From Pseudomonas sp. Tri1 (GTDB lineage Bacteria; Pseudomonadota; Gammaproteobacteria; Pseudomonadales; Pseudomonadaceae): 64,000 nucleotides of DNA. The notes under the pieces are model-generated. The model saw only the letters and a list, made by a program, of their open reading frames with translations, did no database searches and was not told where the DNA came from. Below, one piece after another: positions 54,324 to 58,929 of the stretch; position 1 is the first letter of the stretch; the number at the start of each line of letters is the position of its first letter. The stretch lies in NCBI RefSeq assembly GCF_017968885.1, contig NZ_CP072913.1, positions 5,558,501 to 5,622,500 on the forward strand, in the 5' to 3' direction. Position numbers and translations under genes: made by a program.

Positions 54324-54374
54324 TATACCAAAAACCCGAATTGTACAGGTTTAAACGACGGCGTAGTCTGTACA
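54324..54374 (+). promoter_or_regulatory. Probable LitR/PplR operator and promoter before the FAD oxidoreductase
   Basis: TATACC (54324-54329), 12 bases, then TGTACA (54342-54347): one mismatch from a TRTACA-N12-TGTACA direct repeat. A third TGTACA lies at 54369-54374. TTGTAC (54341-54346) and TAGTCT (54364-54369) with a 17-base spacer could be the promoter, its -35 covered by the operator. Confidence 0.6.
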
Positions 54375-54394
54375 GAAAGGTAAACGAGGCCCTC

Positions 54395-55381
54395 ATGACT
54401 GTACCTATCGCAATCATCGGCACCGGCATCGCCGGACTCTCAGCCGCCCAGGCCCTGACGGAGGCCGGGCACACTGTTCAACTCTTCGATAAAAGCCATG
54501 GCAGCGGCGGACGTATGTCGAGCAAACGCAGCGACGCCGGCGCCCTGGACATGGGCGCACAATACTTCACCGCCCGCGATCGCCGTTTTGTCATGGAGGT
54601 CCAGCGCTGGCAAGCCAACGGCTGGGCCGCGGAATGGAACCCACAACTCTATAATTTCCAGGGTGGGCACCTGAGCCCTTCACCGGACGAGCAGACTCGC
54701 TGGGTCGGCACCCCGCGCATGAGCGCCATCACCCGCGCCCTGCTTGGCAAGTTGCAAGTGCAGTTCTCTTGCCGAATCACCGAGGTCTACCGTGGCCAGG
54801 AACACTGGCACCTGCAAGACGCGGAAGGTTTCACCCACGGTCCCTTCGGCCAAGTGGTAATCGCCACGCCTGCACCTCAGGCCACAGCCTTGCTGGCGGC
54901 CGTACCGAAGCTGGCCGGCGTGGCCGCAGGGGTGAAGATGGACCCGACCTGGGCGGTTGCCCTGGCCTTCGAAACACCGCTGGATACGCCCATGGAAGGC
55001 TGCTTCGTACAGGACAGCCCGCTCGATTGGCTGGCCCGCAACCGCAGCAAACCGGGGCGCGACAATAAACTCGACACCTGGGTGCTGCACGCCACCAGCG
55101 AGTGGAGTCGGCAGCACATCGACCTGTCCAAGGAAGCGGTGATCGAACAGCTTCACGGTGCTTTCGCCGAACTGCTGCATAGCGCAATGCCCGCCCCAAG
55201 TTTCAGCGTGGCCCACCGCTGGCTCTATGCTCGCCCTGCGGGCAGCCATGAATGGGGCGCCCTGGCCGATGCCGACCTGGGCTTGTATGTCTGCGGCGAC
55301 TGGTGCCTGTCCGGGCGAGTCGAAGGTGCCTGGCTCAGTGGCCAGGAAGCCGCGCGGCGCCTGCACGCCAGCCTGCAGTAA
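54395..55381 (+). CDS. Renalase-like NAD(P)/FAD-dependent oxidoreductase
   Basis: 328 residues. N-terminal dinucleotide fold [20 protein letters not shown] (GTGIAG) followed by [20 protein letters not shown], then a second FAD block near the C-terminus ([21 protein letters not shown]). This is the amine-oxidase-like/renalase family found next to photolyase genes in pseudomonads. Reaction unknown. ATG 54395 with GAGG upstream; TGTACA sites put it in the light-stress set. Confidence 0.88.
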
Positions 55382-55403
55382 ATCGCATCACCCGCATCAC
55401 CCG

Positions 55404-56519: not shown

Positions 56520-57457
56520 TGGACCGTCAACCCGATTCCAGTGCCAGCGAAGACCTGGGACCCGACTTCGCCAAAGCCTTGGCAGAAGGCTGGCTGCCCA
56601 TCCGCGAAGTCGCCCGGCAAACCGGTGTCAACGCCGTCACGCTGCGGGCCTGGGAGCGCCGTTACGGTTTGATCGTCCCGCACCGCACGCCCAAGGGCCA
56701 TCGGTTGTTCAACGCCGAACATGTGCAGCGGATCCTGAGCATCCTCACCTGGATCAATCGCGGGATGGCGGTGAGCAAGATCAAGCCCTTGCTCGATGCA
56801 CCGCAGCCACCTGCCGAACCGCTGGAAAATGACTGGCAGCGTCAACGCCACGCCCTTGTGCTGGCGGTGACGCAATTGGCCGAGCGTCAGATTGATGACC
56901 TGGTCAACCAGGCGATGGCGCTGTATCCGCCGTGGACCGTGTGCGAGCAGTTGCTGTTGCCCTTGTTGGCCGAGCTGCAATTGCGCTGGCAAGGGCAGTT
57001 CGGTGCACAGCTGGAGCGTGTGTTCCTGTTCTCCTGGCTGCGCAGCAAATTCGGCAGCCGGATCTACCACAACAACCGTCAGTTACGCGGCGCGCCGTTG
57101 CTGTTGGTCAACCATTCGCAACTGCCCCAGGAACCGCACCTGTGGCTCATCGCCTGGCTGGCCAGCAGCGCCGATTGCCCGGTGGAGGTATTCGACGGGC
57201 CGATCCCGGCGGGCGAGCTGGCCTTGGCGGTCGAGCACCTCAAGGCTCGCGGCGTGCTGCTGTATTCCAGTCACGCGCTGAACCTGTCCCAACTGCCGAA
57301 GCTACTGAATGGGATCGATTGCCCGATCATCATTGCCGGGCCGGCTGCTGCAATCCACCACAGCCAGTTATCCACAGGCCTATCGATGAGTGACGTCTCC
57401 TGGGCCGAGGATCCGTTATCGGCTCACCGAGAACTGAGCCGCAAAAAACTCCTTTAA
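56519..57457 (+). CDS. MerR-family regulator, class II LitR/PplR-like
   Basis: 312 residues. N-terminal MerR helix-turn-helix (PIREVARQTGVNAVTLRAWERRYGLIVPHRTPKGHRLF, about 27-64), then a B12-binding-like domain. The Trp and EH motif of AdoB12-dependent LitR/CarH is degraded (WQGQ 157-160, E166-R167), and the B12-ligand motif DxHxxG reads EPHLWL (205-210). This fits class II LitR, which lacks normal cobalamin binding. Expected to repress the TGTACA-N12-TGTACA promoters. Starts at the rudS stop (1-base overlap). Confidence 0.85.
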   Translation: MDRQPDSSASEDLGPDFAKALAEGWLPIREVARQTGVNAVTLRAWERRYGLIVPHRTPKGHRLFNAEHVQRILSILTWINRGMAVSKIKPLLDAPQPPAEPLENDWQRQRHALVLAVTQLAERQIDDLVNQAMALYPPWTVCEQLLLPLLAELQLRWQGQFGAQLERVFLFSWLRSKFGSRIYHNNRQLRGAPLLLVNHSQLPQEPHLWLIAWLASSADCPVEVFDGPIPAGELALAVEHLKARGVLLYSSHALNLSQLPKLLNGIDCPIIIAGPAAAIHHSQLSTGLSMSDVSWAEDPLSAHRELSRKKLL

Positions 57458-57468
57458 GGGTAAACAGC

Positions 57469-58929
57469 ATGCAACTGATCTGGCTGCGCAGCGACTTGCG
57501 CCTGCACGACAACACCGCTCTCGCGGCCGCCGCACAGCGTGGGCCATGTGTGGCGGTATACCTGCCGAGCCCAGAGCAATGGCGTGCCCATGATGATGCA
57601 CCGTGCAAGATTGATTTCTGGCTGCGCAATCTCGCATCGCTGGGCGCGGCCCTGGCCACATTGAACATCCCACTGATGATCCGCCCCGCGCCGCGCTGGA
57701 ATCAGGCGCCTGAAGTGCTCCTTACGCTGTGCCGCGAATTGAAGATCAGCGCCGTTCACGTCAACGAAGAATACGGCCTGAACGAAACCCACCGTGATGC
57801 CGAGGTCGCCCGGGTTTTATACGGCCAGGGCATCGAGTTTCACCGCCACCTCGACCAACTGCTGTTCAAGCCTGGCAGCGTATTGACCAAGACCGGGAAT
57901 TATTTCCAGGTGTTCAGCCAGTTCCGCAAGGTTTGTTATAGCCGCCTGCACCTCTCGCTGCCGAGCCTGGTCGCCCTGCCCGCCCGGCAAGCCCCCACCG
58001 GCATCGACAGCGATCCGATCCCGACGCAGGTCGAAGGCTTCGCGCAGCCCAATGAAGCGCTGCGTGCCCTCTGGCCCGCTGGCGAAAACGAAGCCCGTCG
58101 GCGTCTGGACAGCTTTGCCGAGCAACACCTCGATGATTACCAGAACGCACGGGACTTTCCGGCCAAACCGGGCACCAGCCAGCTTTCGGCTTACCTGGTG
58201 GCCGGCGTTGTCTCACCACGCCAGTGCCTGCACGCTGCACTGCAAGCCAATCAGGGCGAATTCGAGAGCGGAAGTGCCGGTACTGTGACATGGATCAATG
58301 AATTGCTCTGGCGCGAGTTCTATAAACATATTCTCGTGGGCTATCCACGCGTATCGCGCCATCGCGCGTTTCGCCCGGAAACCGAAGCGTTGGCCTGGCG
58401 CAAGGCCCCCGCGGAACTGGAGGCCTGGAAGCAGGCCCGAACTGGCTTGCCCATTATTGATGCGGCCATGCGTCAGCTGCTGGAAACCGGCTGGATGCAC
58501 AACCGCTTGCGGATGGTGGTGGCGATGTTTCTTACCAAGAACCTGTTGATCGACTGGCGCGAAGGCGAGCGTTTCTTTATGCAGCACCTGATCGACGGCG
58601 ACCTGGCCGCCAATAATGGCGGTTGGCAATGGAGCGCCTCCACCGGCACCGACTCAGCGCCCTGGTTCCGGATATTCAACCCGCTGAGCCAGTCGGAGAA
58701 ATTTGATCCCGAGGGCTTGTTCATCAAGCGCTGGTTACCCGAACTGAACGATCTCGACAGGCGACAGGTCCATAGCCCAAATACCCAGGGTGGATTGTTC
58801 GAAGGGGTGGCTTACCCTCGCCCGATCGTCAATTTGAGCCAGTCCCGGGTACGTGCATTGGAGGCGTTCCGAAATTTGCCGGCGCGCCAGGATGTTGCGA
58901 TTGAAAAGCTGGGCGGTGAGCGAACATGA
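57469..58929 (+). CDS. phrB: Deoxyribodipyrimidine photolyase
   Basis: Light-driven repair of cyclobutane pyrimidine dimers with FAD and an antenna cofactor. 486 residues: LIWLRSDLRLHDNTAL at the N-terminal antenna domain, and in the FAD domain TSQLSAYLVAGVVSPRQCL, WINELLWREFYKHIL, TGLPIIDAAMRQLLETGWMHNRLRMV and DLAANNGGWQWSASTGTDSAPWFRIFNP, with Trp residues of the electron-transfer chain. AAGGG precedes the ATG, 11 bases past the regulator stop. Confidence 0.97.
   Translation: MQLIWLRSDLRLHDNTALAAAAQRGPCVAVYLPSPEQWRAHDDAPCKIDFWLRNLASLGAALATLNIPLMIRPAPRWNQAPEVLLTLCRELKISAVHVNEEYGLNETHRDAEVARVLYGQGIEFHRHLDQLLFKPGSVLTKTGNYFQVFSQFRKVCYSRLHLSLPSLVALPARQAPTGIDSDPIPTQVEGFAQPNEALRALWPAGENEARRRLDSFAEQHLDDYQNARDFPAKPGTSQLSAYLVAGVVSPRQCLHAALQANQGEFESGSAGTVTWINELLWREFYKHILVGYPRVSRHRAFRPETEALAWRKAPAELEAWKQARTGLPIIDAAMRQLLETGWMHNRLRMVVAMFLTKNLLIDWREGERFFMQHLIDGDLAANNGGWQWSASTGTDSAPWFRIFNPLSQSEKFDPEGLFIKRWLPELNDLDRRQVHSPNTQGGLFEGVAYPRPIVNLSQSRVRALEAFRNLPARQDVAIEKLGGERT

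Follow-up and report, generated by a model that had tools for sequence, protein, structure and literature searches.

A probable class II LitR light operon and an adjoining renalase gene in Pseudomonas sp. Tri1: predicted joint control of a tRNA desulfidase and photolyase

A 64-kb stretch of the Pseudomonas sp. Tri1 genome (contig NZ_CP072913.1, 5.56-5.62 Mb in a genome of 6.71 Mb; hereafter the window) carries on its plus strand, in this order, genes for a renalase, the tRNA 4-thiouridine (s4U) desulfidase RudS, the class II LitR regulator PplR1 and the photolyase PhrB. We read this cluster as the Pseudomonas pplR1 light operon together with an adjoining renalase gene, switched by LitR repressors and a LOV photoreceptor as proposed below, and give this reading a probability of about 85%. 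An initial annotation of the sequence had described four genes, the last three overlapping or closely spaced, and coordinates and domains agree with it: the stop codon of rudS overlaps the start codon of the regulator gene by one base, and 11 bases separate the regulator gene from phrB. The features of the region are the following.

54324..54347, plus strand: PplR-type operator TATACC-N12-TGTACA upstream of the renalase gene, one mismatch, conserved in close relatives
54395..55381, plus strand: renalase (flavin adenine dinucleotide (FAD) flavoprotein), assigned by sequence; PDB 4zcc and 3kkj, 610 and 605 bits
55472..55499, plus strand: promoter of the rudS operon, sigma-70-like, TTGACT-N16-TATGAT, with the hexamers and spacing of P. 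mendocina P6650 (PMC9758184)
55508..55531, plus strand: PplR operator, perfect match, at the Site 2 position (after the expected transcription start, before the ATG)
55557..56519, plus strand: rudS, fusion of a TudS desulfidase and DUF1722 (PF04463, PF08349), putative tRNA s4U eraser by similarity
56519..57457, plus strand: pplR1, class II LitR of the MerR family, lacking a cobalamin-binding domain
57469..58929, plus strand: phrB, class I cyclobutane pyrimidine dimer photolyase (NF007955/PRK10674)
59043..59816, plus strand: open reading frame (ORF) resembling short-chain dehydrogenases/reductases (SDR), lacking the catalytic YxxxK, 3' of phrB; probable ufa remnant

RudS matches PF04463 at 130 bits (cut-off 34.7) and PF08349 at 148 bits (cut-off 22.5), and is 93% identical to its counterpart in P. 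brassicacearum CCUG 51508, the top match among the 80 records kept, which places the strain in or near the P. corrugata/brassicacearum group. The three cluster cysteines and the Glu, Ser, Ser and Arg residues named for the enzyme in PMC11417400 are present as C16, C48, C113, E50, S110, S112 and R59, offset by one from the P. putida KT2440 numbering. They are invariant in all 79 aligned relatives (a partial copy, L132, was left out of 80). RudS of KT2440 (PP_0741) shares the TudS-DUF1722 fusion and the operon partners stated in PMC11417400, and shows no difference in the named catalytic residues. The KT2440 enzyme removes s4U both in vitro and on expression in E. coli (PMC11417400), and by similarity the protein encoded here probably removes s4U from tRNA. 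ThiI, the maker of s4U, is encoded in the genome. PhrB scored 525.9 bits against the PRK10674 equivalog model (cut-off 506) and 430 bits against 1dnp, and is the only PF00875 match of the genome. The gene labelled an FAD oxidoreductase in the initial annotation does encode an FAD flavoprotein, which can be named more exactly: with 264 of 327 residues identical (81%) to P. phaseolicola renalase (PDB 4ZCC; Hoag 2015, cited in PMC7660482), it is, by sequence, a bacterial renalase.

The regulator had been described as a MerR protein with a B12-like domain. Beside its MerR domain it contains only the helical half of a B12 module (B12-binding_2, 26.8 bits, cut-off 23); the cobalamin-binding half is missing, with no PF02310 (B12-binding domain) match and neither the W-x9-EH nor the DxHxxG motif of CarH and class I LitR. 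PplR1 therefore falls within the domain definition of class II LitR (MerR plus B12-binding_2, no B12-binding domain) and outside that of class I LitR/CarH: it shares with the latter the DNA-binding domain and the helical half, but not the cobalamin-binding domain or motifs.

The consensus operator of PplR1 is TRTACA-N12-TGTAYA (PMC9758184). Allowing one mismatch, the window holds two matches (0.09 expected; two were reached in 0/100 shuffles). The TGTACA-type repeats reported earlier are indeed found before both the oxidoreductase gene and rudS, but the conserved pair before the oxidoreductase gene is TATACC-N12-TGTACA and not the two TGTACA words visible there. In the whole genome three operators are perfect, against none for the reversed pattern used as a control; they precede rudS, the ufa operon (3.833 Mb) and a chalcone-isomerase-like gene with a DUF3833 gene (3.839 Mb). 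With up to one mismatch the genome contains 21 sites and the control gives 8, so that single-mismatch sites need conservation to be trusted. Summed over 99 family genomes, perfect sites numbered 219 compared to 19 for the reversed pattern. PplR binding to the conserved sites is predicted from their match to T(G/A)TACA-N12-TGTA(C/T)A.

The arrangement around rudS closely follows the light operon known as pplR1 or pmlR1 in P. putida KT2440 and P. mendocina (PMC9758184). There, a class II LitR gene and phrB lie behind a first gene that by position should be rudS (PME6650, called hypothetical in the P. mendocina work), the promoter is TTGACT-N16-TATGAT, the operator is TGTACA-N12-TGTACA and a LitR-LOV pair is found elsewhere in the genome. 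The P. mendocina promoter P6650 is light-inducible, transcription starts 48 bases before the ATG and Site 2 lies between start and ATG (PMC9758184). Differences were found as well: in Pseudomonas sp. Tri1 the ufa genes are located at 3.83 Mb with their own operators, phrB is followed only by the SDR-like ORF, and of the two rudS operators one is degenerate.

Conservation was assessed in 99 family genomes (our own and 98 others), of which 92 gave RudS matches and 86 LitR matches (E up to 1e-20); two held weak TudS-like matches only. From the other genomes 80 rudS loci were fetched, nine RudS genomes being excluded for contig ends or for partial or divergent copies. A second set comprised 80 named close relatives, making 160 related loci in all, which are not mutually independent; a homologue search limited to the best 120 of 7950 matches added little. 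Firstly, gene order is kept: phrB follows rudS in 77/80 family loci, in 15 of them with no PplR1 between; PplR1 is adjacent in 63/80, and renalase precedes rudS in 56/80. Secondly, the operators are kept. A rudS operator with N12 spacing and at most one mismatch is present in 65/80 family loci, and with spacers of 10-14 bases (the L132 start being corrected) in 77/80, including all 63 with PplR1; PplR1 is absent from the three loci without it (L067, L112, L133). The relaxed pattern was found in 0/1418 random 200-base stretches away from rudS and renalase starts. A first null of 1512 random 180-base stretches, from which renalase sites had not been removed, contained 11 perfect sites and one near-perfect one, which we take for genuine operators of the same loci. 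Among close relatives the rudS operator is perfect in 76/80, and 4/80 lack any site with fewer than three mismatches. The renalase operator, with at most one mismatch, is present in all 79 close relatives measured (1/80 was not measurable) and in 37 of the 56 family loci that have renalase before rudS. The idea of a rewired regulator in seven genus g6 loci that seemed to lose the operator was abandoned when N13 spacing was found there instead.

Light most likely enters through LOV, and the regulator itself is probably not the light sensor. The genome encodes a second class II LitR at 1.0686 Mb, near the sole short LOV protein found (158 residues, motif DCRFLQ), which aligns along most of its length with 'sensory box' proteins of solved structure; the strict motif GxNCRFLQ has no match in this genome, and the protein was found with a looser pattern. 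Genes for GTP cyclohydrolase I and FolB lie near this pair. In P. mendocina, the class II LitR PmlR2 is a repressor whose binding to DNA is inhibited by the short LOV protein encoded beside it once this is illuminated, and 6 h of light induced pmlR1 10-fold and phrB 28-fold (PMC9758184). B12 is not required in P. putida according to earlier work cited in PMC9758184.

From these data we infer the mechanism as a whole for this strain, including that LOV acts on repressors of the PplR1 type, that the renalase gene is under light control and that s4U is lost in light. In the dark, PplR1 and the second LitR would occupy direct repeats of the TGTACA type and keep the promoters of renalase and rudS repressed. 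On exposure to blue light, the short LOV protein whose gene lies near that of the second LitR would become active, bind the repressor and abolish its binding to DNA. Derepression would yield renalase and, from the rudS promoter, RudS, PplR1 (as feedback) and photolyase. PhrB would then repair cyclobutane dimers while RudS would take s4U, a near-ultraviolet chromophore, out of tRNA, resulting in fewer cross-links. The suggestion that one switch ties photolyase to RudS holds in so far as a class II LitR switch jointly controlling rudS and phrB is well supported by sequence and by the papers; it probably fails for the regulator as the light sensor.

It is unlikely that the genes are co-expressed but that RudS acts in tRNA quality control, or to damp the alarmone guanosine tetraphosphate (ppGpp), and not to prevent near-ultraviolet cross-links. 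PMC11417400 does tie s4U cross-links to alarmone levels and leaves the role open. However, RudS over-expression lessens the growth delay of E. coli under ultraviolet A (PMC11417400), and the persistence of phrB after rudS in 77/80 loci also speaks against this reading.

Several observations weigh against the LitR/LOV switch as we propose it. The LOV interaction is known for PmlR2 and not for a PplR1-type protein, and a gel shift in PMC9758184 showed the PmlR2-LOV complex still bound to DNA in light, a result that its authors discount. Two sites precede rudS in 62/80 close relatives, and the upstream one is degenerate here, hence repression may be weaker. The promoter pattern TTGA[CT]-N15..18-TATGAT is present in only 14/80 family loci, and taken alone the rudS promoter match (one site found, 1.2 in shuffles) does not exceed chance. 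No renalase operator is present in 19 of the 56 family loci, 14 of which belong to genera g6, g17 and g4. Finally, PplR1 and the operator are kept in 19/80 loci whose genomes have no short LOV protein, and seven of these 19 genomes have neither the NCRFLQ motif nor BLUF, a search that motif variants would escape. LOV is therefore not the sole input.

Short LOV proteins were counted in 65/99 genomes (threshold 140 bits), compared to 76 at E up to 1e-20; in the 11 surplus genomes the best match lies in an open frame of at least 545 residues. The 19 LOV-less loci carry a perfect N12 operator in 12 cases and an N13 operator in seven, all of genus g6. The NCRFLQ motif occurs somewhere in 12 of the 19 genomes and may belong to another LOV protein. 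BLUF was considered as a substitute sensor and rejected, being present in 1/26 genomes, and that one LOV-bearing. No full B12 domain was found in PplR1 from the eight of the 19 loci that were scanned. In two LOV-less g17 genomes a perfect operator precedes a gene for a polyprenyl synthase of the farnesyl or geranylgeranyl diphosphate (FPP/GGPP) type with a lycopene cyclase gene nearby (L258:3805-3828, L259:14921-14944); in one of them, G017, the site also lies inside an overlapping predicted ORF, and in a third, G056, sites are found only at rudS. In LOV-less G018, a perfect site precedes a bifunctional msrAB gene (L251:2992-3015). Combined, the polyprenyl synthase and msrAB sites indicate that operators mark likely photoprotective genes even in genomes with no known sensor.

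The same observations could be taken to mean that the operators answer oxidative or singlet-oxygen stress and that light acts indirectly, given that other operator-linked genes (ufa and, in LOV-less genomes, the polyprenyl synthase gene near lycopene cyclase and msrAB) look photo-oxidative and that seven LOV-less genomes yielded neither LOV nor BLUF. We regard this as improbable: LOV and LitR interact directly in P. mendocina (PMC9758184), and such a pair is encoded in this genome. Still less probable is a PplR1 that senses light itself through adenosylcobalamin in the manner of CarH or class I LitR. The B12-binding_2 score, a match to CarH (5c8d, 60.5 bits) and the description of class II LitR regulators as adenosyl-B12-dependent in PMC11417400 speak for it; the absence of PF02310, W-x9-EH and DxHxxG and the dispensability of B12 in P. 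putida (PMC9758184) speak against it. That the genes are neighbours merely by chance or inheritance, under no common control, is very improbable: inheritance often preserves gene order, and the compared relatives are related among themselves, but the operators stand at fixed places, phrB directly follows rudS in 15/80 loci that have no pplR1 there, and in E. coli phr is overlapped by a DUF1722 gene. In that ybgA-phr pair of E. coli K-12, both a desulfidase domain and a regulator gene are missing. A rudS gene lacking most of the TudS domain, in frame as judged by eye, was seen in a near relative, genome G030 (L132:9950-10300, minus strand), where DUF1722 is left behind both operators, like E. 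coli YbgA; an assembly fault is possible.

The renalase gene differs from that of P. phaseolicola, to which its product is 81% identical over 327 residues, in that it carries a PplR-type operator. Both s4U and NADH absorb near 340 nm. The substrates that renalase oxidises are 1,2- and 1,6-NAD(P)H (isomers of reduced nicotinamide adenine dinucleotide and its phosphate), as reported for human renalase and, going by a title cited there, for that of Pseudomonas; these isomers can arise by photochemical reduction and inhibit dehydrogenases (PMC7660482). The enzyme encoded here would, judging from its sequence, catalyse the same oxidation. A literature search returned no paper on both renalase and photolyase, although the 19 light-inducible genes of Sumi 2020 may include renalase; it returned none linking renalase with light control, none of the seven listed papers on renalase and Pseudomonas has light in its title, the papers searched name no trigger for bacterial renalase, and renalase is absent from the main text of PMC11417400. 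We tentatively suggest, while holding it to be rather doubtful, a three-part near-ultraviolet kit in which photolyase mends DNA, RudS removes s4U and renalase, as a light-induced photorepair enzyme, rescues NAD(P)H, itself a large near-ultraviolet chromophore in the cell, from its inactive 1,2- and 1,6-isomers, which could form through light chemistry.

Downstream of phrB, the SDR-like ORF is probably what is left of the operon's ufa part, and possibly a pseudo-enzyme. Many relatives have the ufa genes after phrB, and a cyclopropane fatty acid synthase (CFA) gene lies within the fetched stretch in 34/80 close and 27/80 family loci. In the close loci YxxxK is lost in 36/45 SDRs when no CFA gene is in the stretch vs 4/34 when one is, some stretches being short and the test covering residues 131-190 of uncurated ORFs. 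The ORF lacks YxxxK here, yet in 79/79 close loci having it the frame stays open for 220 residues or more. Compared across 14 relatives, it changes faster than the genes beside it, by a rough estimate of nonsynonymous to synonymous substitution (dN/dS, simple Nei-Gojobori, high synonymous divergence). In our genome an ufa operon, identified by its gene order SnoaL-SDR-FAD-DUF1365-cyclopropane-synthase at 3.833 Mb, and the chalcone-isomerase-like/DUF3833 genes lie apart from pplR1, each with a perfect operator (L022:6943-13435; 3.833-3.839 Mb).

Twenty stretches were fetched at perfect sites away from rudS. Five sites lie inside predicted ORFs, seven have no predicted gene start in reach (L245, L248, L253-L257) and four precede genes judged by eye to be chemoreceptor-like or glycogen-enzyme-like (L238, L240, L244, L252); a perfect match alone is thus insufficient to define an operator. 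The sites of L238, L240 and L244 (G095, G071, G054) lie less than 200 bases before the chemoreceptor-like genes, and light-controlled taxis is possible there. In G033 a perfect operator is left between renalase and murI (L248:3000-3023), the usual position of the rudS operon elsewhere, and the rudS operon adjoins a LitR2-LOV pair on another contig.

The initial annotation knew of no description of the combined circuit. According to PMC11417400, PhrB, LitR and RudS are encoded together in one of the light operons under LitR control, and light-induced s4U removal is proposed there; the core circuit is already known, and its earlier interpretation is mostly right and not new. New here are the probable identity of the first gene as renalase with its conserved PplR-type operator, the adjacency of phrB and rudS in the family, including the loci with no LitR between them, and the 19/80 loci with PplR1 and operator in genomes devoid of a short LOV protein. 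For the core circuit the value lies in confirmation, as an independent genome and 160 related loci keep rudS and phrB together, mostly with a light operator. The renalase link, if true, would provide a physiological setting for bacterial renalase and, if the LOV-less lineages with PplR1 and operator are as they appear, a second input to class II LitR would become directly testable.

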